DNA of 64,000 nt from Gemmatimonadaceae bacterium (lineage in GTDB: Bacteria > Gemmatimonadota > Gemmatimonadetes > Gemmatimonadales > Gemmatimonadaceae). The notes below the pieces were generated by a model, which searched no databases, was not told the DNA's origin, and saw nothing but the letters and a program-made list of their open reading frames with translations. Within the stretch, counting starts at the first letter, position 1. Every line of letters starts with the position of its first letter. Of this stretch, positions 16,922-45,979 are shown piece after piece. Location of the stretch: NCBI GenBank assembly GCA_019186945.1, contig JABAQJ010000006.1, positions 372,001 through 436,000 on the forward strand, given 5' to 3'. The position numbers were made by a program, and so were the translations under genes.

Positions 16922-17788
16922 TCACTTCACCGCGATGTGCCGAGCCCGGACGGCCATCGCCACGTTGAGCGCATCGACGTATGCGTATGGCAACCTGATC
17001 GTCCCCATTAGTCGACCCTCGTTCACGTCGCCATGGTCGTCGGATCCGCCGGTCACCAGCAGGCGATGTTGCTCCGCGAGTCCCAGAAAGCGCTCCGTCT
17101 GAGCGTCGTCGTGCTGGGGGTAGAACGCCTCGATGCCGTCCAGGCCTGACGCCACCAGCCCGACGATCTCCTCATCTGACAGCCGCGTTCGGCCGGGATG
17201 TGCGGCAACGGCCACACCGCCCGCATCGTGGATCATGACGATCGCTTCCTCCGGCGACACCTTCAACCGCTGCACGTAACAGCGACCTCCATCAAGAATG
17301 AACTCCTCGGTAAACGCCGACTTCACGTCCGGTACGACACCAGCTTCGACCATCGCCCTGGCCACGTGCGGTCGGCCGATGTTCTCGGTGCCGCCGGCGA
17401 TCTCCATCACCCGGTCGAAGCTGACGGTGTACCCGAACTCATTCAACTTCTGAACCATCCCCCACGCCCGCGCAAAGCGTCCGTCGCGAAGACTTCGCAA
17501 CGTATTCTCGAAACGGCGATCTGTAGTCGACACGCCGTAGGCCAGCACGTCGATCTGGCGCTCGTCGGCATCCAGCGTCGAGATCTCGCAGGCGGGGATG
17601 AGTTCCACGCCCAACGCGTCCGCAGTCCGTCGCGCCTCCGGGAGGCCCAGCAACGTGTCGTGATCGGTCAGCGCTACCGCGGCAAACCCCAAGGCGTGCG
17701 CCCGGCGGATCACCTCGCCGGGCGCATCGGATCCGTCGGATGCCGATGAGTGCAACTGCAGATCGGCATACCGCTCTGTCCGGGTCAT
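16922..17788 (-). CDS. PHP-domain phosphoesterase (TrpH/YciV-like), possible PAP or nucleoside-bisphosphate phosphatase
   Basis: This is a 288-residue PHP protein. Visible metal-site motifs are DLQLHSSASDG (about 9-19), LTDHDTL, the Glu in ACEIST, GRPHVARAM, AAHPGR and GGSDDHGD near the end, in the order expected for the TrpH/YciV branch. The first motif normally reads D-L-H-x-H; here Gln replaces the first His. The start ATG at 17788 follows the stop of the PAPS synthetase gene by two bases, so the two are translationally coupled. A characterised relative in Chromobacterium violaceum hydrolyses 3',5'-nucleoside bisphosphates, and other relatives are 5'-3' RNases. Given the neighbour, I infer clearance of PAP, the by-product of PAPS use. 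It is cytosolic. Confidence 0.8.
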   Translation of the reverse strand: MTRTERYADLQLHSSASDGSDAPGEVIRRAHALGFAAVALTDHDTLLGLPEARRTADALGVELIPACEISTLDADERQIDVLAYGVSTTDRRFENTLRSLRDGRFARAWGMVQKLNEFGYTVSFDRVMEIAGGTENIGRPHVARAMVEAGVVPDVKSAFTEEFILDGGRCYVQRLKVSPEEAIVMIHDAGGVAVAAHPGRTRLSDEEIVGLVASGLDGIEAFYPQHDDAQTERFLGLAEQHRLLVTGGSDDHGDVNEGRLMGTIRLPYAYVDALNVAMAVRARHIAVK

Positions 17789-20709: not shown

Positions 20710-23343
20710 ATGGCGGAACCAGTTGTTGGCGCCTCGGCGTCGAGTGCCCCGCAGTGGGGTGTCGTCGCTGGCTCGGAAACGGAGCGGGGCGCGAGTTCGT
20801 CACGGTGGCTGGTCCTTCCCGCGACGGGGAGCGAGTGGCTGCGGTTCGCAGGCCTTGTCGCGCAGGTGGCGTTTCTCGTGGTGTTGTGCCGTGGATTCAA
20901 CATCGAGAACACGGCATACACGCAGCGATTGCTCCCACTCATCCTGGTGGGATTCGTCGCCAACCACCTCCTCGCGCCAGCCCATCGCCTGACGCTGTTC
21001 GCGCTGTTGTCCGTCGCATCCGTCCCACTGGTGTTCGGCTGGTTGGAAGGGGCGTGGCTCCTCGCGATCGGCCTGGCTCTCATCGGTGTGTGCTACCTGC
21101 CGCTGTCGTGGGGCTGGCGTGCGGGACTGATGGCCGCGGCCGGGCTCGTGCTGGTGCCGTTGCGCGCCGGTCTGGTGTCCGTGCCGTGGCCGACGTCGAT
21201 CTGGCCGGTGCTGGGGTCGATGTTCATGTTCCGCATGATCATCTACATGTACGACACCAGGCATATGGGGAAGCAGGGATGGAAAGAGACTCTGTCCTAC
21301 TTCTTCCTCGTGCCTAACGTCGTCTTTCCCTTCTTCCCGGTCGTCGACTACCACACGTTCAAACGCGCGCACTACGCACAGGACGCCTTCGACACCTACC
21401 AGAAGGGCGTCCACTGGATGCTGCGAGGTATCACGCACCTGGTGATCTACCGACTCGTCTATCAGTTCGGGGTGATTTCACCGGCGGAGATCCAGCACAC
21501 GACAGACCTCCTCCGGTTCGTGACCGCGAATTTCATGCTGTACCTGCGGGTCAGCGGAATATTCCACATGGTGTGCGGGATCTTCTTTCTCTTCGGCTTC
21601 CATATGCCGGAGACGCACCGCTTCTACTTCCTGCCCGCCAGCTTCACGGACATTTGGCGCCGGATCAACATCTACTGGAAGGACTTCCTCCAGAAGACCG
21701 TGTACATGCCGGTCTTCTTCCGGTCACGCCGCAGGCTGGGCGAACTCCGCGCGTTGATCCTGGCGACGGCGCTAGTGATCGTCGCGACGTGGTTCTATCA
21801 CTCGTATCAGTGGTTCTGGCTCCTCGGGCATGGGCTCTGGAGTGTGACGGATGCGCTCTTCTGGGTCATCCTCGGTATCGCCCTGGTGATCAACGTGGTG
21901 CTTGAATCGCGCAAGGGGCGCGTTCGCCACGTGGCCGGCTTGCAGGCGCCGACGCATGCACAGGCGATGAAGACGGCAGTCCGCACCACGATCATCATGG
22001 TGCCGCTCGCCGTGTTGTGGGCCTTGTGGACGAGTCCGACGCTCGCGGGATTCTCGCAGATGTTTTCTGCGCTGTCGTTTCGGCCCGTCGACATCGTTGC
22101 CGTGGTCGCATCGGTCATGATGGTGCTGGCGATCGCGTACGGTGCGCAGCGTCTGTCGTTCGGCGTGCAGGGAGTGGCGCCAGAGCGGAAGGGGTGGTGG
22201 TCCAACCCGCTCGTTACCTCCGGTGTGCCTCTGGCGATCGCCTGGGGTGCGGGGCTTCCTGGTATCTCGGATCGTCTCCCAACCAGGGTGGCGGAGCCGC
22301 TGCGCGAGATGCGGGTGACGGAGTTGAGCCGCCGCGATACGCAAACCCTCGAGCGGGGCTACTACGAGAACCTCGTTGGCGTCAGCAGATTCAACGCCGA
22401 ACTCTGGGAAGTGTACAGCCGTCAGTCGCAATCGGACTGGCGCCGGCTGGACGAAATCGGGGTCGAGCGCCGCTTCGACGACCCGATCCACGCCGAGCTT
22501 CGGCCCAACCAGGGCGCGATCTTCCACGGTGCATCGCTTCGTACCAACCGCTGGGGCATGCGGGACAAGGACTATTCAAGGATCCCTGCCCCGGGAACCT
22601 TCCGCCTTGCGATGCTGGGTCCGTCGCATGCCATGGGCAGCGGTGTGGAAGACGATCAGACGTTCGAGTCGCTGGTCGAAAGCCGGCTGAATCGTGAACG
22701 GGCTGGTGCGCCCGCGACCCGCTACGAGATCCTCAACTTTTCGGTCGAAGGATTCGGACTCACGCAGCAGCGGATCCTGCTCGAGCGGCCGCGCGTGTGG
22801 GAGTTCCAGCCCGACGCCGTTCTGCTGGTTACGCATCCGGTCGAGTACTTCTTCATGGCGCGGTACATCGTTCAGGAGATCGAGCGGCGTGGCTGGCCCG
22901 AGGACTCGGCGATGGCCGACCTGGCGCAGAAAGCCGGTGTGAAGCGTGGGATGACGGACGAGCAGGTGCAACGCCTGATCAAACCGTTCGCGGATACGGT
23001 TATTGCCATCGAGATCGGGCGAATGGCCAACCTCTGCGTCACGCACAACGTTCGCTGTCTGTACGCGCTGGTGCCGACGCCAACGTGGGCTGCCGCCCGA
23101 GCCGCCGGACCGCCGATGGCCAAAGCGGCGGCGGAAAGCGGGTTCACGATCCTGAACCTGGATCACGTCTTCACCGGACGTGACGCAAGGCAGCTCACGG
23201 TGGCGCCGTGGGACTACCACCCCAACGCGAAAGCACACGCGTTGATCGCCGAAAGGATGTACGAGGAACTGACGGCGCAACCGGAATTGCTCGCTCCGCG
23301 TGCTTCACGCGCGGTCGCACCGGCGGCTGCGCCAGCAAGATGA
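20710..23343 (+). CDS. MBOAT-like membrane acyltransferase fused to an extracytoplasmic SGNH domain
   Basis: This is an 877-residue protein. Residues about 45-500 form a polytopic membrane domain with MBOAT-like features, including the loop PFFPVVDYHTFKRAHYAQDA and a candidate catalytic His364 in TWFYHSYQWFWLLG. Residues about 560-860 form an SGNH hydrolase domain. Its nucleophile motif is LGPSHAMG (Ser639), followed by NFSVEGFG, and the C-terminal catalytic motif is DYHPN (Asp835, His837). The usual two-protein MBOAT/SGNH pair is therefore present as one chain. It follows the acyl carrier gene by 10 nt and overlaps the next gene by ATGA. I infer transfer of an acyl group from the carrier protein through the membrane domain to Ser639 and on to an extracellular polymer. 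MBOAT membership is less certain than the SGNH domain. Confidence 0.8.
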   Translation: MAEPVVGASASSAPQWGVVAGSETERGASSSRWLVLPATGSEWLRFAGLVAQVAFLVVLCRGFNIENTAYTQRLLPLILVGFVANHLLAPAHRLTLFALLSVASVPLVFGWLEGAWLLAIGLALIGVCYLPLSWGWRAGLMAAAGLVLVPLRAGLVSVPWPTSIWPVLGSMFMFRMIIYMYDTRHMGKQGWKETLSYFFLVPNVVFPFFPVVDYHTFKRAHYAQDAFDTYQKGVHWMLRGITHLVIYRLVYQFGVISPAEIQHTTDLLRFVTANFMLYLRVSGIFHMVCGIFFLFGFHMPETHRFYFLPASFTDIWRRINIYWKDFLQKTVYMPVFFRSRRRLGELRALILATALVIVATWFYHSYQWFWLLGHGLWSVTDALFWVILGIALVINVVLESRKGRVRHVAGLQAPTHAQAMKTAVRTTIIMVPLAVLWALWTSPTLAGFSQMFSALSFRPVDIVAVVASVMMVLAIAYGAQRLSFGVQGVAPERKGWWSNPLVTSGVPLAIAWGAGLPGISDRLPTRVAEPLREMRVTELSRRDTQTLERGYYENLVGVSRFNAELWEVYSRQSQSDWRRLDEIGVERRFDDPIHAELRPNQGAIFHGASLRTNRWGMRDKDYSRIPAPGTFRLAMLGPSHAMGSGVEDDQTFESLVESRLNRERAGAPATRYEILNFSVEGFGLTQQRILLERPRVWEFQPDAVLLVTHPVEYFFMARYIVQEIERRGWPEDSAMADLAQKAGVKRGMTDEQVQRLIKPFADTVIAIEIGRMANLCVTHNVRCLYALVPTPTWAAARAAGPPMAKAAAESGFTILNLDHVFTGRDARQLTVAPWDYHPNAKAHALIAERMYEELTAQPELLAPRASRAVAPAAAPAR

Positions 23344-25154
23344 CGAAACCGCGAGATTCGATTCTGGCGTCACGTGTCCGCGGCATCGGGGATGTTGCCG
23401 CCATCGCTTTCTGGAGCGCTCTTGGGGTGGGGATCGCACAAGCGGCGATCACTGTCATAAACGCCGACCTCCGGCACAAGATCGTCTATGCCAGCCGGGA
23501 CGTCATCTGGATGGCGCCGCTCTCCTACCTGATGCTGTTTGCGGTGCTCGGTGCCGTTCTGACGATCGTCATTCTCATTGCGCCGCGCGTGATCGGGCCA
23601 ACCGTTGCCACGATCCTGTCGCTCTGGCTCGCGTTCTTCTCGCTGACTCTCCCATATGGCATGATCGCGCGATGGGCGGCCGCGGCATTGGCGCTGGGAG
23701 CCGCCGTGGTGATCGGTCGCTGGTTGGCCAGGGACGTGGGCTGGCCGCGGCGCGCCGCTCGTCAGGCGTTGGGCATGGTCGTCCTGATCTCAGTTGCCGC
23801 GGTCGGCACCCGGGGAGCGCGAGCCTGGTCAACACGGAGTGCGCTGGCAGCCCTCCCTGCGCCACGGGCCGACGCCCCCAACGTGATCCTGATCATCCTC
23901 GATACCATGCGGGCCGCGAACATGCGCTTGTACGGGTACGAGTGGGACAACACGCCGAAGATCGACGCTCTCGCACAGCAGGCGGCGGTGTTCGACAATG
24001 CCATCGCCCCGGCACCATGGACGCTGCCGTCCCACGCCTCGATGTTCACGGGGCTCAACCCGGATCAGCTGTCAGCCAACTACGTCGATCCGCTCGATGC
24101 CACGGCCCCTACCCTTGCCGAGCAACTCGCCGCCAAGGGTTATGCGACAGCAGGGTTCGTTGCCAATCATCATTACACTGGCTATGACAGTGGGCTGGCG
24201 CGAGGTTTCGCGAAGTACGAGGATTACAAGGTCACGATCAAGCAGGTGATGCGCACTGCGTGGCCAGTCCAGGCACTCTATTTCTTCGACCCGGTAGCTC
24301 TTGGCGGTGACGCCACCATCGTCAAGTCCGAGGACGACAAGGTGCTGCAGGTGCCGCCCAAATCGTGGGCGCATGCCAAGCGTGCCGCGGAGGTCGTCGA
24401 CGAGTTCCTGAAATGGGAGCGAGGTAGGAACGGGAGGCCGTACTTCGCCTTCCTGAACATGTACGACGCCCACGATCCTCGATATGCGCCTCGCGGTATC
24501 CGATCCCCTCTACGCTACAAGCAGCCGAACCTGGGCGTCTACGACGCCTCGATGGCGTACATGGACCGGGAGATCGGACGTATGTTGCGCGCCCTGTCGG
24601 CCGATGGTTCGTTGGACCGCACCGTTGTAATAGTTGCCTCAGATCACGGCGAGCTCTTCGGCGAGCACCAACTTTGGGGGCATGCCAACAACCTCTACCT
24701 CGACGTCTTGCGCGTGCCTCTCCTGATCCACTACCCGCCTCGGATTCCCGGCGGCGTTCGCGTACAGCGAACGGTTACGCTCCGTGACCTGCCCGCGACG
24801 ATCGCGGATCTCGTGGGCGTCCCTAAGAACGAATGGCTGCCCGGCGAGTCGCTCGTCCCGCTGATGAATGGCATAGCCGACGCTACGGCCAGCCCGGTCG
24901 TTTCGTATGCGCACCACACGATCAATTTGCCAAAGAAGTTCCCCGCGGCCCGTGGCGCGATGTACAGCGTCTTCGATGACTCGTTGCATTACATCCGGAA
25001 CCTGGGTGACAAGGCCGAAGAGCTGTTCGCCTGGAAGGTCGATCGGGCGGAAGCGACGGATCTGGCCCGGCAGCCGAACGCGCAGGCTGAGTTGCAGCGA
25101 TTCCGGGCACTCGCGCGTCCTGCCGATGCACCCACCGGAGGTTTGAGCAGATGA
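23340..25154 (+). CDS. Five-TM alkaline-phosphatase-superfamily ('sulfatase-fold') enzyme, Thr-type, paralog 1
   Basis: This is a 604-residue protein starting at the ATG that overlaps the previous stop (ATGA). It has about five N-terminal membrane helices (residues 15-170), with the motif SRDVIWMAPL between helices 1 and 2. An extracytoplasmic PF00884-type domain follows: NVILIILDTMRAANMRLYGY gives the first metal Asp, and APWTLPSHASMFTG puts Thr228 at the nucleophile position. FAFLNMYDAHDP and SDHGELFGEH (Asp435, His436) complete the metal site. True sulfatases need Cys or Ser in C/S-x-P-x-R for formylglycine formation; Thr cannot be converted. Thr nucleophiles are known in phosphoethanolamine transferases and lipoteichoic acid synthases, which also have five TMs. 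I therefore infer a phospho-transferase or phosphodiesterase. The C-terminal end still resembles sulfatases. Confidence 0.82.
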   Translation: MTKPRDSILASRVRGIGDVAAIAFWSALGVGIAQAAITVINADLRHKIVYASRDVIWMAPLSYLMLFAVLGAVLTIVILIAPRVIGPTVATILSLWLAFFSLTLPYGMIARWAAAALALGAAVVIGRWLARDVGWPRRAARQALGMVVLISVAAVGTRGARAWSTRSALAALPAPRADAPNVILIILDTMRAANMRLYGYEWDNTPKIDALAQQAAVFDNAIAPAPWTLPSHASMFTGLNPDQLSANYVDPLDATAPTLAEQLAAKGYATAGFVANHHYTGYDSGLARGFAKYEDYKVTIKQVMRTAWPVQALYFFDPVALGGDATIVKSEDDKVLQVPPKSWAHAKRAAEVVDEFLKWERGRNGRPYFAFLNMYDAHDPRYAPRGIRSPLRYKQPNLGVYDASMAYMDREIGRMLRALSADGSLDRTVVIVASDHGELFGEHQLWGHANNLYLDVLRVPLLIHYPPRIPGGVRVQRTVTLRDLPATIADLVGVPKNEWLPGESLVPLMNGIADATASPVVSYAHHTINLPKKFPAARGAMYSVFDDSLHYIRNLGDKAEELFAWKVDRAEATDLARQPNAQAELQRFRALARPADAPTGGLSR

Positions 25155-26998
25155 ACGTACCCGAGGAGTCGCTGCGTGCGGCGGCGGTGACCCCCCAGGT
25201 GACGGTTGACAGGGCGACGAGGATCAGGGAGATCCTGTGGCTCTGGTTCTTCGCGTCCATGGCCACGGCTGCGTTCTTCGTCAACAAGATGACGCTGAAG
25301 CAGTATGTGCTGCATCGGTTCACCTGGACGTCGCGGGACCTCATCTGGATGTCTCCGCTGGCCAACCTGATGTTGCTGGCGGTCCCGGCGTTGCTGCTGG
25401 TAGCACTGGCCTTCATCTCGCCGAAGTACGCCCCTCGCTGGCTAGCCGCGTTCGTTCTGGCGGTTCCGGCGGCGATCGGAATGGCCGTGATCGTGCGAGG
25501 GCTGGAAAACTACGCGATCTGGATTCTGGCGATCGGCGTCGGCGTGCAGGGGGCACGGATGCTGTCATCGTCCACTGGCGACGCATGGTTGCGGCGCATC
25601 AAGATCGCGACGATCGGTCTGGCTGCGCTATTCGCAGCCGTCGGGATCGTTCAGCGCGGCTGGCGAACAACCGCGGAGTGGCGCTGGCTTCGTCACGCTG
25701 CCCAGACGCCCAAGGACGCACCGAACGTGCTCATCCTCCTTCTCGATACGGTTCGTGCCGGACACCTCAGCCTCTACGGATATTCGCGACCCACATCGCC
25801 GACGATCGATTCCCTTGCGCGAGACGCGACGGTCTTCAACTCGGCCTACTCGACGGCGGGTTGGACACTGCCGTCGCATTGTTCGTTCTTCACCGGCCGC
25901 TACCCGGATGGCACCACGTGCGGTTGGGAGACCAAACTGGGGCCCTCGCCGCGTACCGTGGCCGAGATTTTTCGTGACAACGGCTGGCGCACTGGCGGTT
26001 TTGCCGGAAACCTGTTCTACGCCACGCACGAGACCGGGATCGCACGAGGTTTCACTACGTGGGAAGACTTCAAGGTCAGCTTCAAGCAGATCCTCAGTTC
26101 CTCGACTCTCGCGCAGGGAGGCGTGCTCCGGCATCTCTTCTGGAATCCCACTGGCCGCGACCGTCTGCTCGGCCTCAAGACGTTGGAGCTGAAGGGGGAT
26201 CCGAAGCCGGAAGTCGACCGTCGCCAGGCCGAGGATCTGGGAGCGCAGTTCCTCGACTGGGCAGACCGGGATCCCGAGCGTCCGTTCTTCGCGTACGTGA
26301 ACTTCTTCGACGCGCACGAACCGTACGAGCCGCCGGCGGCATTCCGCAACAAGTTTGTCGCGGAAGACCCCAAGGATCGCGACCGCTATGACGGTGGCAT
26401 TGCGTACATCGATCAGGAGGTCGGGCGCATTCTGTCGGGGTTGCAGCAGCGCGGTCGACTGGACAGGACGCTGGTCGTCATTGTCGGCGACCACGGCGAG
26501 CAGTTCGGCGAACATAACCTGACGACGCACGGAAACAGCCTTTACACGCAGTTGATCCACGTCCCGCTGATCATGCGCTATCCGTCGAAGCTGCCCAGCG
26601 GCGCGCGCGTCAACCGGGCCGTGTCGCTTCGCGACCTGCCGCGGACCATGCTCGATGTCGCGGGTATCGCGGACACCAAAGGGATCTTCGGCACGTCGCT
26701 GGTCCCAGCGGTCGCCGATTCCGCCCACGAAACCAGCGCGATCATCGCCGAAACGGAGCAGACACCGAAGTGGACGAAGGTTCCGACGTACAAGGGACCG
26801 ATGTCGTCGCTCATGGACCAACGCTATCACTACATCCGATCCGTTACCGGCACGGAGTGGCTTTTTGACTACCGGGCAGACCCCGCGGAACTGCAGGACC
26901 TCGTGAAGGATCCGTCGAAGGCAGACATCCTGGCGGCGTTGCGGGAGCAGCTGACGACGCATAGAAAGCCGTCGAACGCGGCGAGCGCCAGCAACTGA
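25151..26998 (+). CDS. Five-TM Thr-type sulfatase-fold enzyme, paralog 2
   Basis: This is a 615-residue protein overlapping paralog 1 by ATGA. It has five N-terminal membrane helices (about 22-185) with FTWTSRDLIWMSPLANL after helix 1. The catalytic domain shows NVLILLLDTVRAGHLSLYGY, GWTLPSHCSFFTGRYPDG (Thr239 as candidate nucleophile) and GDHGEQFGEH. A Cys pair flanks the active site (SHC...TTCGW); the same pair occurs in paralog 6 (35022-36821), as does the segment GDPKPE-x-DR-x-A. The two are thus sister proteins sitting in different operons. It is the last gene of the carrier-protein operon and ends 6 nt from a convergent membrane-protein gene. Role inferred as for paralog 1, with substrate unknown. 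Confidence 0.82.
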   Translation: MNVPEESLRAAAVTPQVTVDRATRIREILWLWFFASMATAAFFVNKMTLKQYVLHRFTWTSRDLIWMSPLANLMLLAVPALLLVALAFISPKYAPRWLAAFVLAVPAAIGMAVIVRGLENYAIWILAIGVGVQGARMLSSSTGDAWLRRIKIATIGLAALFAAVGIVQRGWRTTAEWRWLRHAAQTPKDAPNVLILLLDTVRAGHLSLYGYSRPTSPTIDSLARDATVFNSAYSTAGWTLPSHCSFFTGRYPDGTTCGWETKLGPSPRTVAEIFRDNGWRTGGFAGNLFYATHETGIARGFTTWEDFKVSFKQILSSSTLAQGGVLRHLFWNPTGRDRLLGLKTLELKGDPKPEVDRRQAEDLGAQFLDWADRDPERPFFAYVNFFDAHEPYEPPAAFRNKFVAEDPKDRDRYDGGIAYIDQEVGRILSGLQQRGRLDRTLVVIVGDHGEQFGEHNLTTHGNSLYTQLIHVPLIMRYPSKLPSGARVNRAVSLRDLPRTMLDVAGIADTKGIFGTSLVPAVADSAHETSAIIAETEQTPKWTKVPTYKGPMSSLMDQRYHYIRSVTGTEWLFDYRADPAELQDLVKDPSKADILAALREQLTTHRKPSNAASASN

Positions 26999-27004
26999 TC
27001 GTCT

Positions 27005-29032
27005 CTAGCGCGACACCGGATCCGGTTTCGGTCGAGTCATCCGTCGCGGGCCCGCCGGATCGCCCAAGGTCAGCGGGACGGTCACACGATCGAGCGTGTC
27101 GGTCGGCAGGTTGGCCGTAAGGGCGATGCAAGCACGATCTCGCGCCACGCCGGGAGGGATCGCATTGTCGGTGCGCCGGCACGCCAGCCACGGAAGGAAC
27201 GGCGTCCACGGATTCGGCCAGCGAATCGGCTCCCATACGCCATCGTCGAGAATGAATCCGTCGCCCACTCGGGACGGGTTTCGGAGCCGCAGGTTCGGCG
27301 CCGGGTGAGGCGTGCAGAGGAGAGGGCCGCGCCAACAGAGGTTATTGTCCTTCGGCACCGCCAGCTTGAGTCCTGATGATGTGGTGTAGCTGACGAGTAC
27401 CGGCTTCGGCATGGGGTGCAACCCGTGATCCGGACCGGGCAGGAAGACCAGTCCTCCGATTGCCTTTACTCCCCCTGCGCGTCGACCGGTCGTTCCTCCC
27501 TTGCTGAAGACCGCCAGTGCAACGATGGCCACCAGAGAGAACGCGGCCGTCGTTGCGCCGACGCGCCGCATCTGACGACGCCGGATTGCGTCGTCCCCCT
27601 GGATCGTCCGGAACCAGAGCGCCATCGTCAGGGCGGCACCCAGCCACATGGGACCCATCCCGAAACGCGGGTGCGGCGAAGCGAAGAACCAGAATGCGAC
27701 GCCAATACCCACCGGTATCATCAGCAGCCACGGCGACTCCGCAATCTCGTCACTCGGCGGTCGTCGCCGCCCGCGAACGAATGCCGCCAGACCGAAGGCG
27801 AGCGCGATCAAGAATGGCACTGGAACCAGGAATGCAAACCGAATGTCGGTCACGATCTCCTTCGCCCAAGGCACCAGCCAGTCGTAACCAGCCACGATCC
27901 GGTTGTGATTCAGCTCGTGGCCACTCATGCGGATCCATTCGGCCTCCGCGTTTGCCTGAACGACGGAAACCCGCCACGGTACCGACTGGCCGAGTACGGT
28001 GGCCGGATAGACCGGATATCCGCTCAGGATCACCCCACGTGCCATCCACACGATGCCCATCGCCACCGGAACGATGATCGCTCCCGCGGTCGCGCGTGCG
28101 TGCGTTGCGATGGCGTGACGGAAAACCGCGAGCGAAACGAGGAAGAGCACGCCGCCCAGTACGACGGCGCTCAACTTCACGCACACTGCAGCTCCAAGCA
28201 GCAGGGCCACCGCGGCGAAGTGCCAGCGATTCAAGTCGGAAGTGCTGCCCGCACTGGTCATCGACCTGTGTATCCTGGACGCCGCCAGAAGCAGAATGAG
28301 GGCGACGGGGACGTCTGTCTCGAGTGAACTGATCTCCCCGCCAACCAGCACCGCAAGTACCGGGAGGAACAGCACCGCGTCGAAGGCGTCCGCTGCTTGC
28401 GGCCGGCTCCGTGCGGACACGAGTCGCGTCCACGCCAACACCGCTTGCAGACCGAACATCACCAGCAACAGGCTGTTGGCGACATGAAACGACCGCCCGC
28501 TCCACGGACCGTGATCGATCAGTGCGGCATACAGCAGACTGGCCGAGTTGAACGCGAGGCGTCCGTGCAGGTTCGCCAGTCCGGGGACGATCGCGTACTC
28601 TTTCGACCACTCCAGTACCGGAATGTGGTACATCCCGCTGTCGTAGTGCGCGATCGGTCCCGTCGATCGATTGGCCGCCCAGGCAAGGAGTGCAAGTGTC
28701 AGCAGCACGCCAAGCCGCCATCCATGCCACGGACGGGCGCGAATCCATGCGAGGAGCGAAGCCCGCTCGAGCGCGATCCCCAGGAAGCCTAACGCCGCCA
28801 CAACAGCGACCGCCGCTGCATTGACAGCGAATAGCAGGTGCCAGACTTGAAGGACCAGGAGCAGGCCGGCAAAACCTGTCCAGAATGCCAGCAGCATCTC
28901 TTGGGCGTCGAGTTCCCTGGGCGTGAAAAACCGGCGGTAGAGCAGGCCAATACCGGTGAGCATCAGCGCCACAAGCGCCCATGTCGCGATAATGGCCGAG
29001 TGCGACGCGATGAGCAGGGAAATCGAGGTCAT
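27005..29032 (-). CDS. LIC_10190-like polytopic membrane protein (GT-C-like glycosyltransferase candidate), copy A
   Basis: This is a 675-residue protein with about a dozen membrane helices. A conserved extracytoplasmic segment (about 145-190) contains HYDSGMYHIP, then W-S-K-E, then PGLANLHGRLAFNS, close to the corresponding part of the protein at 38610-40469 (LYDSGMYHIP, PGLGNLHGRLGFNP). The family is known to me as LIC_10190-like and has no firm biochemistry. An acidic residue in the first loop (YDSG) and the overall helix pattern suggest a lipid-phosphosugar-dependent GT-C enzyme. The C-terminal tail has four Cys in CWRGPLLCTPHP and ACRRTDN. It converges on the first sulfatase-fold operon. 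The function is unproven. Confidence 0.7.
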   Translation of the reverse strand: MTSISLLIASHSAIIATWALVALMLTGIGLLYRRFFTPRELDAQEMLLAFWTGFAGLLLVLQVWHLLFAVNAAAVAVVAALGFLGIALERASLLAWIRARPWHGWRLGVLLTLALLAWAANRSTGPIAHYDSGMYHIPVLEWSKEYAIVPGLANLHGRLAFNSASLLYAALIDHGPWSGRSFHVANSLLLVMFGLQAVLAWTRLVSARSRPQAADAFDAVLFLPVLAVLVGGEISSLETDVPVALILLLAASRIHRSMTSAGSTSDLNRWHFAAVALLLGAAVCVKLSAVVLGGVLFLVSLAVFRHAIATHARATAGAIIVPVAMGIVWMARGVILSGYPVYPATVLGQSVPWRVSVVQANAEAEWIRMSGHELNHNRIVAGYDWLVPWAKEIVTDIRFAFLVPVPFLIALAFGLAAFVRGRRRPPSDEIAESPWLLMIPVGIGVAFWFFASPHPRFGMGPMWLGAALTMALWFRTIQGDDAIRRRQMRRVGATTAAFSLVAIVALAVFSKGGTTGRRAGGVKAIGGLVFLPGPDHGLHPMPKPVLVSYTTSSGLKLAVPKDNNLCWRGPLLCTPHPAPNLRLRNPSRVGDGFILDDGVWEPIRWPNPWTPFLPWLACRRTDNAIPPGVARDRACIALTANLPTDTLDRVTVPLTLGDPAGPRRMTRPKPDPVSR

Positions 29033-29459
29033 TCCGGGCGAAAGCCGTTTCGACGTTGTGAGGACTACCGGGGTGCTGTTCCCACGGGCAACCGCCGCGC
29101 TCGCCCGTTTTGCAAGCTGTGTTCCTGCACGGTTGGCCCAAACTCGACAACACGCACTAGGTTAAGGACATAGGTACGGATTGCGAGTGACGGCAACGGC
29201 TTTGGCAGCGTCCATCGGCGGATCCCCGGTCGCATGGCAGCAAATTGCGGCAACGGCGCAACATAATTCGCTCGACCGAACGTGACCACGTCGGCCCCGC
29301 GGACCGAAACATGCAGTCCGCGACACGCCTGCCTTACACCTCACCCTCTCGCTGAACGGATGAGTATCTTGGGACAGATGCCGGCCTGCGTCGCCAACGG
29401 AAAACGACTGAAACGGCGAATGGCTCGGTACGGCCAGCGCGCGGGAAGGGTCGGCTCGC
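29033..29459. other. Divergent intergenic region, 427 bp
   Basis: This lies between a minus-strand membrane-protein gene and the second sulfatase-fold operon, so promoters in both directions are expected. I saw no coding region, riboswitch or strong hairpin. GGGAAGGG near the 3' end (29447-29454) serves as ribosome-binding site for the gene at 29460. Confidence 0.5.
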
Positions 29460-31319: not shown

Positions 31320-33154
31320 ACGAGGCTGTGACGATCGGGCGAAAACTTCGCGACGTGCTCTGGCTTGCCTCTGGCTGCGCGATGGTCGCCACCGTCTATT
31401 TCCTCGTGCGTGCTGGCGGCTACCTCACTCTGGCTGGGGGCTTTGCTACCGTCAGCCGTGACGTGCTTTGGATGGCGCCGCTCAGTCACTTGTTCTTCTT
31501 TGGCGTGTTGGCGCTGCCCGTATTGGCTGTCGCGTCTCTGGTGGGGCGCGCGGCAGCGGTGCGCTCGGCGGTCGTCGTCTTCATGTCGCTCCTGTTCTTC
31601 GGCGTGTTGATGCCGTGGACACAGCTCTCGCGCTTTGCGGCGCTGGTTCTGGCGATAGGTGCCGCGGTTGCGGCGCACCGGCGGCTACCTGCCGATCCGG
31701 ACCGTCTCGTGGCCTTGTCGAGGCGGGTTGCGCTTACGATCGCGACGCTGTGCGCCGTGTTTGCGACGGTGTCCGTTGCATGGCGTGTCGTGACCAGGCA
31801 GCGGGCGATTGCTGCGATGCCGGAGGCGCCAGCCGGCGCGCCTGATGTGCTGCTGATCATCCTCGATACCGTTCGGGCCTCCGCGTTGAGCCTGTACGGA
31901 TACGGACGGGAGACGACCCCCGAACTCGATGAATTCGCCAAGGGCGGAGTGGTGTTCGAGACCGCGATCGCTCCAGCGCCGTGGACGCTTCCGTCGCATG
32001 CCACGATGTTCACCGGCCGTTACCCGGCCTGGCTCAACGTGGATTTCCAGCAACGCATGAACCGAGCGGAGCCGACGCTGGCCGAACTCCTTCGTGCCAA
32101 GGGATATTCGACCGTGGGGATAGCCGCGAACACGGGGTATGCGAGCTGGGAATCCGGCCTGGCGCGCGGCTTCACCGAGTACCACGACTACCCGGTGAAC
32201 CTGGAGCAGGTCATTCGTTCGTCGCTCTACGGAAGCTCGACTATCGCGGACAAACTCTATCGGGCGCGAACCAGAGCCGAAGTCATCAAGCAGGTGATGG
32301 CGCACCGTTTCGACGTACCGCCGAAGCCCGAACATTACCTGATGACTGCCGCGGAGGTCACCGACCGGTTTCTTGACTGGCAACGTTCGCGCGATTCTCG
32401 CCGCCCGTATTTCGCTTTCCTGAACTATTACGACGCGCACGATCCGTACACGCCACCCGATAGCCTGCGCAGGAAGTTCGCGAAACCGCCGAAGCCTCGC
32501 GACCTGTATGACGCCGAGATCCTTTACATGGACCACCACCTTGGACGTCTGTTCAAGTCGCTCGAGGCAAGTGGTGCGCTCCGGAATACGGTGGTGATCG
32601 TGGCCGCGGATCACGGCGAACAGTTCGGCGAGCGCGGCCTGAAAAATCATGCGAACAGCGTATACACGGCTCTCGTCCATGTACCTCTGGTAGTACGATT
32701 CGATGGTCGCGTGCCCGCGGGGACGCGCGTTGCGATGCCAGTGTCGTTGCGTGACCTGGGCCGCACCATCATCGATGTCGCCGGAATCGGGAAGGACGTA
32801 GCGTTCCCCGGTCGCTCCCTGGCGAGCGCGTGGAGACGGACTGCAACGCCGGATTCCGTGAGCGCTCCCCTGGCGTTGCTCGAGCGGGTACGTGAGGACG
32901 ATCCGTCGTCTCCTGCTACCGATTCCACCATGATCGCGGCTTTCGACGATCGCTGGCACCTGATTCGGATGACCCGTCGAAAGATCGAAGAGATGTTCGA
33001 CTACCACGTGGACTCGGCCGAGGAAACGAACCTCATCGGGTCGGACGCGGCACGCGATGCGCTGCCAAGGTTACGCGACCTGATGCACAGCGCCCTTGTT
33101 GCCGACATACCGCCGGGATTCAAGGCGGCTACGCCGCAAAAGGATTCGCCATGA
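31316..33154 (+). CDS. Five-TM Thr-type sulfatase-fold enzyme, paralog 4
   Basis: This is a 612-residue protein. The start at 31316 is the ATG overlapping the previous TGA; the upstream open extension lies inside the previous gene and is not used. Five N-terminal helices (about 15-170) include VSRDVLWMAPLSHL after helix 1. The catalytic domain has DVLLIILDTVRASALSLYGY, APWTLPSHATMFTG (Thr224), FAFLNYYDAHDPYTPP and ADHGEQFGERG. The insert LYGSSTIADKLYRARTRAEV resembles that of paralog 3. In the usual G-H-G-N-S-x-Y stretch after the DHG motif the His is preceded by Asn (KNHANSVY) rather than Gly. It overlaps the next gene by ATGA. Predicted role as for the other paralogs. Confidence 0.82.
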   Translation: MNEAVTIGRKLRDVLWLASGCAMVATVYFLVRAGGYLTLAGGFATVSRDVLWMAPLSHLFFFGVLALPVLAVASLVGRAAAVRSAVVVFMSLLFFGVLMPWTQLSRFAALVLAIGAAVAAHRRLPADPDRLVALSRRVALTIATLCAVFATVSVAWRVVTRQRAIAAMPEAPAGAPDVLLIILDTVRASALSLYGYGRETTPELDEFAKGGVVFETAIAPAPWTLPSHATMFTGRYPAWLNVDFQQRMNRAEPTLAELLRAKGYSTVGIAANTGYASWESGLARGFTEYHDYPVNLEQVIRSSLYGSSTIADKLYRARTRAEVIKQVMAHRFDVPPKPEHYLMTAAEVTDRFLDWQRSRDSRRPYFAFLNYYDAHDPYTPPDSLRRKFAKPPKPRDLYDAEILYMDHHLGRLFKSLEASGALRNTVVIVAADHGEQFGERGLKNHANSVYTALVHVPLVVRFDGRVPAGTRVAMPVSLRDLGRTIIDVAGIGKDVAFPGRSLASAWRRTATPDSVSAPLALLERVREDDPSSPATDSTMIAAFDDRWHLIRMTRRKIEEMFDYHVDSAEETNLIGSDAARDALPRLRDLMHSALVADIPPGFKAATPQKDSP

Positions 33155-35007
33155 CGAATGCCCCCGACGGCCCGACGGTGCTGCCAGCCGGGTGGGGGCC
33201 GAAGGTTCGCGCGTTTGCGACGCTGATCGTCGCGGCGACGCTGATGTCGGCCGCGGCATTCGGACTCCGTGCGGCTTGGTTGCTCACCGGCGGGGGAGGG
33301 TTCGCGGGCGTCAGCCGCGACTTTGTGTGGATGTCGCCGTTGGGTTATCTCGCGCTCTACGTGTTGCTGGCGATTCCCGTGGCGCTGGTGGCGCTGCTCG
33401 TGTCGACGCAACGAATGTTGTATCTGGCGACCTTGCTGTTCGCGGCGTTCTTCGTGTTCGACGCGCTGCTGCCATTCACGGAGATTGCGCGCCCGGCTGC
33501 CGCCGTTCTGGCGATCGGACTGGGCACCGTGTTGGCGCGGTGGATCGGCGCGAACCCGGAACGAGGGCTCCGAACGTTCCGCCGGATGTCGGCGACCTGC
33601 GCCGTGCTCATTGCCATCGGCGCGGCCGCAATGGCCGGGGCGCAATGGCTGGGACATCGTCGCGGCGCACGACAGACGGGCGCCGCCGCTGCCGGCGCAC
33701 CCAATGTGCTGTTGATCATCTGGGACACGGTGCGTGCGTCCGAACTGTCGGCGTATGGCTACGACAGGCCGACGACGCCGTTCCTCACGACGCTCGCCGG
33801 TACCGGCGCGCTCTTCGACGCGGCGATCGCTACCGCCCCGTGGACGCTGCCATCGCACGCGTCGATGTTCACGGGACGCTACCCACAGCGGCTCAGCACC
33901 GATCTGCGGGCACGTCTCGACGGGCGCGAGCCCACGGTCGCCGAGATCTTCCGGAAGGCCGGATACTCGACTGTCGGCATTGCCGCCAACACGTTCTACA
34001 CCAGTTGGGAATCGGGATTGAACAGGGGGTTCACCGACTACCGCGACTATCGGCGGGACCTGCAACAGGCGATGCGTGCCTCGCTATTCGGTCAGTCTCG
34101 CTTCGTCACGGACCTGTTCGAGGCCAGGACCAGTGCCGAGTTGAAGAAGGCATTCAGTCCGCCGATGCTGCTTACGCTGCCGAAACCGGCGCGTGTGGAC
34201 ATGATGCGCGGGACCGAGGTCACTGATCGCTTTCTCCGCTGGGAACGCCAGCGCCCGCAGTCGCGACCGTACTTCGCCTTCCTGAATTACATCGACGGCC
34301 ACCGGCCGTTCGATCCTCCTGCCGACTTGCGTGATCGCTTCGTAACGAGCCGGAAACGGAATCCGAAGGAACTGTACGATGCGGAGATCGCACATCTTGA
34401 CCGCGAGCTGCAACGTCTCATATCCGAACTGGACAAGCGTGGACAGCTTGGGAATACGCTCGTCATACTCACGGCCGACCATGGCGAGCACTTCGGCGAA
34501 CGGAACCTGCAGGGCCACGGCAACAGTGTCTATGCACCAGCCGTGCACGTACCGCTCGTGATGCGGTTCGACGGACGCATCGTTCCGGGAACGCGCGTCT
34601 TTCCGGCGGTATCGCTCCGTGACCTCGGCGCGACGATGTTGGAGCTGGCTGGTATCCGGTCGGCCTTCCCGGGCTCCTCGCTCACCCGCTACTGGACGAC
34701 GGCTTCCGATTCGGGAAGCGCCGCCATCGCCCTGCTGGGCAGGGTGCAGTCGAAGGATCCTTCGATTCCATCGGTGGAGAACGCCGAGGTGGGCGTGTTC
34801 AGCGATCGATGGCACCTGGTGCGTTACGGCCTGCGCCCCATGGAAGAGCTGTTCGAGTACCGCTCGGATCCTCTGGAAGCGCACGACGTCCAGGGGTCGG
34901 CGGCGGCGAGTGTCGCCACCGACAGCCTGCGCCAACTCCTCAAAGCCGCGTTCCTCGAGGACCGTCCGGGCCGACGGCAGGCGCAGTCAGCGAGCGCCAG
35001 TCGCTAG
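33151..35007 (+). CDS. Five-TM Thr-type sulfatase-fold enzyme, paralog 5
   Basis: This is a 618-residue protein overlapping paralog 4 by ATGA. Five N-terminal helices (about 20-175) carry VSRDFVWMSPLGYL after helix 1. The catalytic motifs are NVLLIIWDTVRASELSAYGY, APWTLPSHASMFTG (Thr232), FAFLNYIDGHRPF and ADHGEHFGERN. The segment after FAFLNY reads IDGHRP, where most paralogs have YDAHxP, so one substrate-pocket residue differs. It ends with a basic tail (DRPGRRQAQSASASR). There is a 14-nt gap before the next gene, the largest in this operon. Same predicted type of activity, with a possibly different substrate. Confidence 0.82.
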   Translation: MTNAPDGPTVLPAGWGPKVRAFATLIVAATLMSAAAFGLRAAWLLTGGGGFAGVSRDFVWMSPLGYLALYVLLAIPVALVALLVSTQRMLYLATLLFAAFFVFDALLPFTEIARPAAAVLAIGLGTVLARWIGANPERGLRTFRRMSATCAVLIAIGAAAMAGAQWLGHRRGARQTGAAAAGAPNVLLIIWDTVRASELSAYGYDRPTTPFLTTLAGTGALFDAAIATAPWTLPSHASMFTGRYPQRLSTDLRARLDGREPTVAEIFRKAGYSTVGIAANTFYTSWESGLNRGFTDYRDYRRDLQQAMRASLFGQSRFVTDLFEARTSAELKKAFSPPMLLTLPKPARVDMMRGTEVTDRFLRWERQRPQSRPYFAFLNYIDGHRPFDPPADLRDRFVTSRKRNPKELYDAEIAHLDRELQRLISELDKRGQLGNTLVILTADHGEHFGERNLQGHGNSVYAPAVHVPLVMRFDGRIVPGTRVFPAVSLRDLGATMLELAGIRSAFPGSSLTRYWTTASDSGSAAIALLGRVQSKDPSIPSVENAEVGVFSDRWHLVRYGLRPMEELFEYRSDPLEAHDVQGSAAASVATDSLRQLLKAAFLEDRPGRRQAQSASASR

Positions 35008-35021
35008 CGACGAGAGTCCGC

Positions 35022-36821
35022 ATGCACGCTCCTGACGCAACCACCGCACGACCCGCACGCCCCGCGGACGTGTTGTGGCTGGCGTTGGCGACCGCTGGCA
35101 TCGCCGTCGTCGCACATGTCTCGGCCGTTGCGATCCGCAGACACGCACTCCACCAGTTCACCTGGACCACATCCGACCTTCCGTGGATGTCGCTCGTCGG
35201 CAACACGATCGTATTCCTTGGCATGGCCGTGGCCGTGTGGGTGCTGGGCATAGTCGTGGCGAGGCTGCGACGTCTGTCAGCCGTAGTGGCGATCTTCGGC
35301 TGCCTGGCGGCACTGTGCGTATTGCTCCTCGTCACCGGGATCTGGCAGTATGCATCGCTGGCCTTCGCGCTGGGTTTGGCGACCGTGCTGTCGCGCGCGG
35401 CGAGAGACGAGCCGGACAGTTTCCTCAGGTACACGCGGCGTGTCGCCCTCGCCACGCTTGCCGTCGGTGCCGCGATGGCCGGCCGCGCACTGCAGAGCGA
35501 CGGATCGCCTCCAGGAAGCGCCAGTGGCGCAAGCGGCATGCCTAACGTGCTTCTCATCATATTCGACACGGTGCGCGCGTCCAGCACCAGCCTCCACGGT
35601 TACTCGCTCAGGACCACCCCGGTCCTGGACAAGTTGGCGCGCGAAAGCGTCGTCTTCGATCGGGCGGTCGCGACCGCGCCGTGGACCCTGCCTTCCCACT
35701 GCTCGTTCTTCACCGGGCGAGATGCACAGGACACGTCCTGCCGATGGGCGGCCCCGCTCGATTCGGAAGGAACGACGATCGCCGAAGTACTGCGTGACCG
35801 CGGGTACCGGACCGGCGCGTTCGTGGCCAACGTATTCTATACGACGCGTGAAACCGGGCTCGCTCGTGGCTTCGACACGTGGATGGACTTCCGGCGCACA
35901 TGGAAGGAGGTCTTCTGCAGCACAGTGATCGCACAGACAGGAATCGTCCGCAACGCTGTCTGGGGGGGCTCTCTTCGGGAGCGGATCAGTGGCCTGGTGC
36001 GCCTCCGGTTGCGAGGCGATCCCAAGCCTGAGCACGATCGCAAGCGTGCGGAGATCGTCAACGCCGACCTGCTGAAGTGGGTCGACGAGGACTCCGGGCG
36101 CCCGTTCTTTGCCTTTCTGAATTACTTCGACGCCCACGATCCCTACCGCGCTCCCCCGCCGTACGATCGCGCCTTTCCCACGGCGCCGCACAGCCGCGAA
36201 CAGTATGACGGCGCGATCGCTTACATGGATGCGCAGTTGGGCAAGCTGCTGTCGGAACTGCGGCGACGCGGGCTCCTGGACCGCACGATCGTCGTCGTTG
36301 CCTCCGATCACGGGGAGATGTTCGGGGAGCACGAACTCTACGGCCATGGCAACTCCGTCTACTGGCCGCTGCTCCATGTGCCGCTCGTGTTGCGATACCC
36401 GGCGGAACTGGCAAGCGGAGTGCGCGTCTCCACGGCGGTTTCGCTGAAGGACCTCCCGGCCACGCTGCTCGATCTTGCCGGAGCGGACGACCTTCGGATC
36501 GGTGGCGTCTCGCTTGCCAACCTCGTGCGGGATTCGAGCGCCGTTCGTCCGAGTGCGGCCCTGTCGTTCGTCGAACAGGGCAGGAACTGGTGGGCGAATG
36601 AGCCTGCCCGCGTCGACTCGCTGCGCTCCATCGTCGTGGGCTCGGAGCAGTACGTCCACGCGTACGGCGGCAGAGAGCAGCTGTTTGACCTGGCGAAAGA
36701 CGTTCACGGCCTCCGGGATGTTGCCGCCGACCATGCGGATCGGCTACCTGCGATGCGCGAGGCGCTGGAGCGCGCGGTCGCCCGTCCCACGGTCGCAAGA
36801 CCGCCTCGCGCGGCACAGTGA
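35022..36821 (+). CDS. Five-TM Thr-type sulfatase-fold enzyme, paralog 6
   Basis: This is a 599-residue protein; the ATG at 35022 lies 14 nt after the previous stop. Five N-terminal helices (about 16-160) have a looser loop motif, FTWTTSDLPWMSLVGN, where Arg of SRD is replaced by Ser. The catalytic domain has NVLLIIFDTVRASSTSLHGY, APWTLPSHCSFFTGRDAQ (Thr222) and SDHGEMFGEHEL. The Cys pair (SHC...TSCRW) and the segment GDPKPEHDRKRA are shared with paralog 2 in the other operon. It overlaps the next gene by GTGA. The sister relationship suggests that the two operons arose from duplication of a shared set. Confidence 0.82.
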   Translation: MHAPDATTARPARPADVLWLALATAGIAVVAHVSAVAIRRHALHQFTWTTSDLPWMSLVGNTIVFLGMAVAVWVLGIVVARLRRLSAVVAIFGCLAALCVLLLVTGIWQYASLAFALGLATVLSRAARDEPDSFLRYTRRVALATLAVGAAMAGRALQSDGSPPGSASGASGMPNVLLIIFDTVRASSTSLHGYSLRTTPVLDKLARESVVFDRAVATAPWTLPSHCSFFTGRDAQDTSCRWAAPLDSEGTTIAEVLRDRGYRTGAFVANVFYTTRETGLARGFDTWMDFRRTWKEVFCSTVIAQTGIVRNAVWGGSLRERISGLVRLRLRGDPKPEHDRKRAEIVNADLLKWVDEDSGRPFFAFLNYFDAHDPYRAPPPYDRAFPTAPHSREQYDGAIAYMDAQLGKLLSELRRRGLLDRTIVVVASDHGEMFGEHELYGHGNSVYWPLLHVPLVLRYPAELASGVRVSTAVSLKDLPATLLDLAGADDLRIGGVSLANLVRDSSAVRPSAALSFVEQGRNWWANEPARVDSLRSIVVGSEQYVHAYGGREQLFDLAKDVHGLRDVAADHADRLPAMREALERAVARPTVARPPRAAQ

Positions 36822-38605
36822 CAGCGACGAGGGTCTCCCCGCGCGCCCGGATGCGCTGTGTCGTCTACTGGACGACCACGGCGGCTCTGACCGCCGGCAC
36901 GCTCCAGGTTGCGATTGCCATGGTGCGTCGATTCGCGTTTGACGAATTCATCTGGGTCAGCCGGGATTTCGTGTGGATGGTGCCGTTGGCGTACCTGGTC
37001 GTGTTCGGAGCGTGTGCCATCCCGCTGGCCGCGCTGGCTCTGGCGACGCCGCGGCTCATTCCGGAGCGTGCCGTTGCTTTCTTCCTGATGTCTTTGGCTG
37101 GCTTGGCGGTGATGCTGATGTTCCCCAGGCTGCATCCCTTGGCGGCGCTTGCCGTGGCGATCGGCGGCGCGGTGCGAGTTACTTCGCTGCTGCCGTCAGC
37201 TGATACCGGCGAGCGCCCATGGGTGTCGCACTGGACGCTGCTGGCCGGGACGGCGCTGGCGGTACTCGCCGGCGTGCGCGAGGTGACGCATCGGCGTGAG
37301 GAATCGACTGCGCTCGCCGAGTTGCCACCGGCACGCAGCGGGGCGCCCAATGTCCTGCTGATCATCCTCGATACTGTACGTGCTGCCAGCATGAGTTTCA
37401 TGGGTTATCCGCGCCTGACGACGCCCGGGATCGCCCAGCTTGCCAAGGAGGGAGTGACATTCGACCACGCCTACACCGTTGCGCCGTGGACGCTGCCGTC
37501 GCATGCCGGGATCTTCACGGGGCTCTATCCGTCGGCGCTCTCCGTGGATTGGCGCGTTCCTCTGGACGAGCGATCTACGACGCTGGCCGAGGCGTTGTCC
37601 AGTGCAGGATACGTGACGGCTGGATTCGCCGCCAATCATTTCTACACGAGCTGGGAGTCCGGCCTGACGCGCGGCTTCGCGCACTACGAGGACTATCGCC
37701 GCACGTGGAAGCAGGTATTGCTCAGCATCCCGCCGTTCCAGACCAACCTCTTCTGGTCGATCGTGCACGACCTGCGTCCTGCGAATGTATTCACGCAACT
37801 GCGGCGTTTCGATCTGCGCACGCAAACGATGTGGACGAGCGATAGAAAGCTGGCCAGCGCCGTCACGGACGACTTCCTCGACTGGGAGCGAAGCCGGGGC
37901 GGGCGCCCGTACTTCGCCTTCTTGAACCTGTACGACGCGCACTTGCCATACGATCCGCCGGACGGGTGGCGCACCAAGTTCGGCGGCGAGGCTAACGACC
38001 TCGATCGCTACGATGGGGCGATCGCGTACATGGATCATGAACTGGACCGCTTGGTGTCCGAGCTGCGCCGACGAAATGCGCTCGACGGCACGATCATGAT
38101 CGTCACATCGGATCATGGCGAGGGATTCGGCGAGCATGGACTCCATGGGCATGGGAACTCGCTCTACCGACCGGAGCTGCACGTTCCCCTTGTCATCCGC
38201 TTTCCCGGCCTGGTACCGCCGGGCCGGCGTGTGGATCGGCCCGTATCGCTCCGCGATCTTGGCGCCACGATTTTCGATCTGACGGCGGTCAGCCCGGGTT
38301 CGTTTGCGGGTGTATCGCTGGCGGCGGCATGGCGGAGCGCCAGCGCGACGGTGAGCCCGGTGGTGTCCGAGGTGAGCGCTGGGATCAATACCGAGCCGTC
38401 GGCGCCGGTGAGTCGGGGAGCGATGCGGTCGCTCGTGGATTCGACGGCGCACTATATCCGGAACGGCGATGGCGCAGAAGAGCTGTACGATTTTCGCGGC
38501 GATCCGGCGGAGCAGACGGACGTTGCGGCAACGGATACCGCGCGCGTGGCATCGATGAGAACTGCTGTCCAGCGTGTCGTCGGCCCACCATTGCCGCGGC
38601 GTTAG
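36818..38605 (+). CDS. Five-TM Thr-type sulfatase-fold enzyme, paralog 7
   Basis: This is a 595-residue protein starting at the GTG that overlaps the previous stop. Five N-terminal helices (about 15-150) carry IWVSRDFVWMVPLAYL after helix 1. Catalytic motifs are NVLLIILDTVRAASMSFMGY, APWTLPSHAGIFTG (Thr225), FAFLNLYDAHLPYDPP and SDHGEGFGEHGLHGHGNS. The insert between catalytic blocks (about 295-350) is unlike those of paralogs 3 to 5 and closer to that of paralog 1. It is the last gene of the operon, with a compact hairpin at its stop codon. Predicted extracytoplasmic phospho-transferase or phosphodiesterase. Confidence 0.82.
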   Translation: MTATRVSPRARMRCVVYWTTTAALTAGTLQVAIAMVRRFAFDEFIWVSRDFVWMVPLAYLVVFGACAIPLAALALATPRLIPERAVAFFLMSLAGLAVMLMFPRLHPLAALAVAIGGAVRVTSLLPSADTGERPWVSHWTLLAGTALAVLAGVREVTHRREESTALAELPPARSGAPNVLLIILDTVRAASMSFMGYPRLTTPGIAQLAKEGVTFDHAYTVAPWTLPSHAGIFTGLYPSALSVDWRVPLDERSTTLAEALSSAGYVTAGFAANHFYTSWESGLTRGFAHYEDYRRTWKQVLLSIPPFQTNLFWSIVHDLRPANVFTQLRRFDLRTQTMWTSDRKLASAVTDDFLDWERSRGGRPYFAFLNLYDAHLPYDPPDGWRTKFGGEANDLDRYDGAIAYMDHELDRLVSELRRRNALDGTIMIVTSDHGEGFGEHGLHGHGNSLYRPELHVPLVIRFPGLVPPGRRVDRPVSLRDLGATIFDLTAVSPGSFAGVSLAAAWRSASATVSPVVSEVSAGINTEPSAPVSRGAMRSLVDSTAHYIRNGDGAEELYDFRGDPAEQTDVAATDTARVASMRTAVQRVVGPPLPRR

Positions 38606-38625
38606 GCCATCAGCCGCCTGATGGC
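38606..38625. terminator. Compact bidirectional hairpin at a convergent gene junction
   Basis: GCCATCAG-CCGC-CTGATGGC is a perfect 8-bp stem with a tetraloop. It begins at the base after the stop of paralog 7 and covers the stop codon of the convergent gene at 38610. It could act as a terminator or 3'-end barrier in both directions. There is no T tract. Confidence 0.5.
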
Positions 38626-45977: not shown

Positions 45978-45979
45978 GC

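Follow-up and report, generated by a model that had tools for sequence, protein, structure and literature searches.

Closest described systems

Proteins of the PF00884 family that carry threonine at the active site are widely annotated as sulfatases. According to the SulfAtlas authors, Thr occupies this position in 30 of the 59 Pfam seed sequences of PF00884, its oxidation would yield a ketone and not formylglycine, and uncharacterised Thr proteins are not to be considered sulfatases without evidence (PMC5066984). Two 'sulfatase' labels have been revised in archaea: VNG1056C and VNG1057C of Halobacterium salinarum, annotated as alkaline-phosphatase-domain/sulfatase proteins, were renamed Agl30 and Agl31 once deletion and expression in Haloferax volcanii had shown that they sulfate sugars of the N-glycan (PMC11980604), and Agl7 contributes to the sulfation of dolichol-linked hexose (PMC3871713). 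Among phosphoethanolamine transferases, the ligands of MCR-1 are Glu246, Thr285, His395, Asp465, His466, and His478, and Cys281-Cys291 flank its nucleophile helix (PMC5031297, PMC5175174).

A tandem family of Thr-type genes in Gemmatimonadaceae

The window analysed here is a stretch of 64,000 nucleotides from a Gemmatimonadaceae bacterium. An earlier note on this DNA had listed seven tandem 'sulfatase' reading frames at 23340–38605, each with a WTLPSH active-site motif; on re-checking, all coordinates and every residue number are correct. All seven genes, here called S1 to S7 (not to be confused with the S1 sulfatases), lie on the forward strand. S1 (23340–25154; 604 aa; Thr228) starts within the stop of an upstream gene at 20710–23343 and is followed by S2 (25151–26998; Thr239), S3 (29460–31319; Thr231), S4 (31316–33154; Thr224), S5 (33151–35007; Thr232), S6 (35022–36821; Thr222), and S7 (36818–38605; Thr225). 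Overlaps of four bases between stop and start occur at five junctions (the 20710–23343 gene/S1, S1/S2, S3/S4, S4/S5, and S6/S7), so that the genes read as two coupled runs. Between S2 and S3 these are separated by an opposite-strand gene for a LIC_10190-family membrane protein, a probable GT-C glycosyltransferase (27005–29032, reverse strand; NF047510, E 4.8e-63), and a second member of that family follows S7 (38610–40469, reverse strand; NF047510, E 9.4e-60).

Each of the seven proteins matches Pfam PF00884 (E 1e-44 to 1e-50); Pfam matches to PF01663 were also obtained. Their pairwise identity is 33–48%, and WTLPSH has therefore been kept despite divergence. They fall inside one Gemmatimonadota clade of old paralogs (support 100), in which S4 and S5 are sisters, S6 groups with S2, and S7 has orthologs in two other genomes, at L010 and L011 (support 100). 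The whole source genome (3.95 Mb, rated 100% complete) encodes 18 PF00884 proteins: the seven in tandem, four with TLPSH, one with SLPSH, four with CxPSR, one with CTVSR, and one MdoB/LtaS-like protein. The Thr-type family thus has five further members beyond the window (the four TLPSH proteins and the SLPSH protein).

The surrounding genes resemble a locus for a surface glycan. The gene overlapping S1 (20710–23343, forward strand) encodes an 877-aa membrane protein with an SGNH-like C-terminal part that appears MBOAT-like by eye and has no Pfam match; its relatives (40–41%) in L010 and L126 are encoded next to genes of the Thr type. Downstream are two GT-C/PMT-type membrane proteins (42283–43944 and 43941–45977) and a flippase-like plus methyltransferase protein (45788–47560), all on the forward strand, and this 42283–47560 block is conserved beside Thr-type genes in L125 (genome G028). 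The earlier suggestion that so large a family may act on several related substrates of one polymer would agree with such a glycan locus and with paralog lineages that are old and have each been conserved separately.

Other genes of the window and of related loci were also recorded. Near the locus lie genes for three secreted proteins (1135–3483, 3993–8180, and 11036–15313) that are related to one another; they contain Big_2 Ig-like domains, with eight matched stretches in the largest, and share a C-terminal beta-helix-like part. A tandem pair of secreted GH30-like proteins is encoded at 47576–49327 and 48838–51039; in both L125 and L022, homologs of this pair neighbour genes of the Thr type. 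In L010 the Thr-type tandem adjoins two tryptophan-halogenase-like flavoproteins, and in L126 acyl-CoA dehydrogenase and AMP-binding genes lie beside the Thr-type cluster; the contexts of L010, L011, and L126 suggest a link to a lipid or specialised metabolite.

Sulfatase hallmarks are replaced

The earlier note had argued that these proteins cannot be formylglycine sulfatases, and both the sequences and the genome bear this out. We aligned 105 Thr-type relatives with 20 Cys/Ser sulfatases. At the nucleophile position the former have Thr in 101 and Ser in three, versus Cys in 19 and Ser in one of the latter, although the selection of the 80 loci itself accounts for some of the conservation of Thr and PSH, as WTLPSH was one of the search patterns. 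The Arg of the sulfatase motif, present in all 20 Cys/Ser-types, is replaced by His235 in 98 of the 105 Thr-types; GKWH occurs in none of them versus 15 of 20; DN becomes DH; and where sulfatases have Lys/Arg next to the position, all 105 Thr-types have His451. The genome's own CxPSR genes combine CxPSR with DN, and with GKWH in three of the four, while its Thr-types have neither. A distinction between DD and DT was dropped as a diagnostic of Thr-types, because the Cys-type YidJ also has DT, and a literature search on the TLPSH/WTLPSH/TxPSH motif found nothing relevant.

Neither FGE (PF03781) nor anSME (TIGR03942) had a match at E<=0.001 in this genome rated 100% complete. FGE is missing from four of the six Thr-type genomes of the order, a weak correlation (FGE in 2/6 versus 35/53 genomes; p 0.18) for which reason the maturase argument is restricted to the source genome. 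That S1–S7 are formylglycine sulfatases after all, which their S1-like overall sequence and fold might suggest, is highly improbable, given the loss of Arg, GKWH, and Lys, a Thr that would be oxidised to a ketone (PMC5066984), and the undetected FGE and anSME.

The same genome encodes four CxPSR sulfatases (C4:185300–189173 and C5:285971–286984; loci L001 and L008) and a CTVSR relative on C7, yet FGE and anSME are undetected; genomes G011 and G023 likewise have strong sulfatases without FGE. Either another maturase exists or these proteins stay unmodified.

A metal site like that of EptA and MCR-1

Aligned by HHalign with Escherichia coli EptA (E 2e-13), the family matches it ligand by ligand: Asp191 (S3 numbering) pairs with Glu in VGE, Thr231 with the second Thr in CGTAT, His381 with His in GSH, Asp438-His439 with SDHGE, and His451 with His in LHG. 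Since Cys281-Cys291 lie around the MCR-1 nucleophile helix, Thr285 corresponds to the second Thr of the motif, and the set Asp191/Thr231/His381/Asp438/His439/His451 matches that of MCR-1/EptA, a Thr-nucleophile metalloenzyme pattern. His381, Asp438, and His439 occur in 105 of 105 Thr-types and Glu441 in 104; His381 and His451 are invariant even though they lie outside the search patterns, which indicates that the sites are maintained. Thr as the nucleophile, as the earlier note had proposed, is thus likely from this alignment. Two haloarchaeal pairs, L146 (G064) and L147 (G188), retain the Thr with an altered PSH (ATPESM and PTIASM), so in the wider family the His that follows the nucleophile is dispensable.

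The conservation also bears on the idea that S1–S7 are sulfatase relatives that have lost catalysis and serve in binding or as scaffolds. YejM/PbgA, a membrane protein of the alkaline phosphatase fold with a regulatory role, offers a precedent, but metal and His ligands that are essentially invariant in 105 bacterial and archaeal relatives make this reading very unlikely.

Fold, topology, and phylogeny

The AlphaFold2 model of S3 (mb0441769bdd4; pLDDT 92.7, pTM 0.92) has helices at residues 6–42, 53–76, 81–101, 109–129, and 131–169, followed from ~180 by an alkaline-phosphatase-like domain. The N-terminus and the fourth loop are the most positively charged, and prediction favours a topology with the N-terminus in and the domain out. 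The model and the loop charges together support the previously noted layout of five transmembrane helices plus an extracytoplasmic domain, the outside location being probable.

A structural comparison with LtaS, EptA, and sulfatases, put forward earlier as a check, confirmed the alkaline phosphatase fold and did not discriminate further: scores against the model lie at Z 34–40 for S1 sulfatases, LtaP, and PbgA alike, with the S1 sulfatase SpAS2 on top (Z 40.2), LtaP at Z 34.4, and PbgA at Z 34.0; EptA is not among the structure matches listed. The top Foldseek match is a phosphonate monoester hydrolase (PMH).

In a quick tree of 85 sequences with long branches, the 20 Cys/Ser-types cluster together (SH-aLRT 96) with the Thr-types outside the cluster, and EptA/OpgB/LtaS-like proteins are separate from both (SH-aLRT 96), so that the Thr-types stand beside the Cys/Ser S1 sulfatases and not with EptA/LtaS. 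As a single group the Thr-types have a support of only 54, and they may therefore be the stem of the formylglycine sulfatases. Judged by sequence, S1–S7 are EptA-like at the active site, yet they are not members of the EptA branch. The earlier placement among phosphoethanolamine transferases or LtaS is consequently not supported, as the proteins join the S1 sulfatases in the tree, at a distance from EptA/OpgB, and have no Cys pair of the MCR-1 type.

These results cut both ways for the serious rival to our interpretation, in which S1–S7 are EptA/LtaS-like phosphotransferases whose Thr moves phosphoethanolamine or glycerophosphate from a phospholipid to the glycan. The ligand-by-ligand match to EptA/MCR-1, the five-helix layout, the fold scores of LtaP and PbgA, and the presence of phospholipid donors outside the cytoplasm all speak for it, whereas S1 sulfatases and phosphonate monoester hydrolases are closest in both fold and sequence, the tree parts Thr-types and Cys-types from the EptA/OpgB/LtaS-like proteins, and the co-occurrence with PAPS synthesis and a sulfotransferase (below) would be left unexplained. 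We regard phosphotransfer as possible, though the less probable of the two.

Co-occurrence with sulfate activation

A PAPS synthetase consisting of an APS kinase fused to an ATP sulfurylase (PF01583, PF14306, PF01747) is encoded upstream of the tandem genes (17791–19572, reverse strand). We surveyed 59 genomes of the order, six of which have the Thr-type family. Of the six, five encode a full-length PAPS synthetase, which the remaining 53 genomes all lack (Fisher 1.2e-6; genomes of one family are not independent), and in 5/5 genomes the enzyme's gene shares a contig with Thr-type genes, mostly <20 kb away. The sulfurylase part finds a 57% match in genome G007, which also encodes a separate APS kinase, and the island in G028 includes a Na/sulfate symporter and a second APS kinase. 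One orthologous PAPS-type sulfotransferase (PF00685) shows the same distribution (5/6 versus 0/53; Fisher 1.2e-6, again for non-independent genomes); its gene, G000:C3:155693–156814, lies far from the window and encodes an N-terminal hydrophobic segment. G002 has a weak PF00685 match that is not orthologous to the sulfotransferase common to the five genomes.

Across genomes and gene neighbourhoods, the PAPS synthetase, the sulfotransferase, and the sulfate symporter speak for sulfate activation rather than for phospholipid head groups. However, the PAPS genes could serve assimilation instead, and common descent within a single family confounds the co-occurrence.

Beside the PAPS synthetase is a PHP-domain phosphoesterase (16922–17788, reverse strand; PF02811, E 1.7e-11), and the two adjoin in L022, L126, L128, and L130. 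The phosphoesterase is a possible candidate PAP phosphatase; a literature search found no support for a PHP protein in this role.

In other phyla the commonest neighbours of Thr-type genes are PF01663 phosphodiesterase-like genes, also found in haloarchaea and Gemmatimonadaceae. They make up 11 of 116 neighbour genes and are present at 16 of 87 loci, frequently right next to the Thr-type gene. The two families may form a two-component module across bacterial phyla and haloarchaea. PF01663 'GLDG' genes stand beside Thr-types in L012, L014, L016, L018, L020, L024, L059, L061, L067, L068, L069, L072, L126, and L129. No sulfate genes were among the 25 commonest neighbour families outside Gemmatimonadaceae in this neighbourhood scan, so the link to sulfate rests on Gemmatimonadaceae and the Halobacterium experiments.

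These neighbours, together with the PF01663 matches of S1–S7 themselves, would suit phosphodiester or sulfate-ester hydrolases with a Thr nucleophile, similar to the NPP type, that trim or remodel the surface polymer or its lipid-linked precursor. We consider this rather unlikely, as a set of seven paralogs tethered to the membrane, with glycosyltransferases interspersed among them, looks biosynthetic, and the archaeal sulfatase-fold proteins encoded in a glycan cluster act as transferases (PMC11980604).

The Thr-type family is found in 138 of 146 Halobacteriales genomes, in up to 11 copies. The aglB cluster of Haloferax mucosum (L068) has three Thr-type genes, all encoding the Thr and the His ligands. 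Clusters in G064, G188, G202, G136, and G114 were not identified as encoding Agl30/Agl31, as no aglB motif lies beside them.

A proposed role in glycan sulfation

Taken together, the data suggest that S1–S7 add charged groups, most likely sulfate, to a surface sugar polymer and do not remove sulfate. We tentatively favour the interpretation that they are extracytoplasmic, Thr-nucleophile group transferases that modify a glycan, the group probably being sulfuryl. They would be active, metal-dependent members of the alkaline phosphatase superfamily, held in the membrane by five helices and with an extracytoplasmic catalytic domain, and each would modify its own sites on a surface glycan that the locus produces. 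The Thr would attack a donor, forming a covalent Thr-O-X intermediate from which a glycan hydroxyl takes X, most likely a sulfuryl group. We infer the topology, the Agl30/31-like action, the sulfuryl identity of X, the glycan acceptor, and the donor. The covalent intermediate of choline sulfatase breaks down through cleavage of the formylglycine hemiacetal, which releases the sulfate (PMC5870055); a Thr ester, having no such exit, must pass to an acceptor, and the change from Cys to Thr would thus favour transfer over hydrolysis.

Two further points weigh against a sulfuryl group. Metal sites with two His are usually associated with phosphate. PAPS, moreover, is cytosolic and not expected outside the cytoplasm, so that an outward-facing domain would need a secondary sulfated donor, and we know of none for such a sulfuryl-transfer domain. 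A carrier sulfated by the PF00685 enzyme would solve the absence of PAPS outside. In such an extracytoplasmic relay, which we put forward as speculative and on balance unlikely, sulfate would pass from PAPS via the membrane-anchored PF00685 sulfotransferase to a carrier (for example a lipid), then to the Thr-type enzymes and finally to positions on the glycan.

Should the Thr-types prove to be sulfotransferases, the annotation of a large class of proteins would have their chemistry reversed, sulfation of glycans in bacteria would be commoner than annotated genomes imply, and there might be a new extracytoplasmic sulfation route. The Halobacterium precedent and the co-occurrence data make the sulfotransferase reading directly testable.

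Comparison with known systems

In overall sequence and fold S1–S7 are nearest to S1 sulfatases and phosphonate monoester hydrolases, but the Cys/Ser, Arg, Lys-Trp-His, and second Lys of those enzymes are all replaced, and a maturase was not found in the genome. With LtaS, LtaP, and OpgB they share the fold (LtaP Z 34.4), the Thr nucleophile class, and membrane anchoring; the tree branch is separate, however, and a glycerophosphate-specific context was not found around S1–S7. The likeness to EptA/MCR-1 extends to the Thr nucleophile, a D/E-T-D-H metal site plus two His, and five transmembrane helices before the domain. Unlike EptA/MCR-1, S1–S7 have Asp and not Glu as first ligand and no Cys pair flanking the nucleophile (Cys281-Cys291 in MCR-1), and the TLPSH helix is missing from EptA, which also occupies a separate branch. 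The relay, if true, would be a sulfate counterpart of the use of phospholipid head groups by LtaS/EptA.

Agl30/Agl31, by their published description, share with S1–S7 an alkaline phosphatase/sulfatase fold, the 'sulfatase' label, a place in a glycan cluster, and several paralogs, which serve separate sugars in Agl30/31 and may do so in S1–S7; S1–S7 have the alkaline phosphatase core fold, a glycan cluster, and a host that encodes PAPS synthesis. The aglB cluster with Thr-types in Haloferax mucosum is of the kind that encodes Agl30/Agl31 in Halobacterium. Agl30/31 are cytosolic or have a single transmembrane helix, whereas S1–S7 have five and a domain predicted to lie outside. By this analogy, in which Agl30/31 are known to us by description and not by sequence, membership of S1–S7 in the Agl30/31 subfamily is a strong lead.
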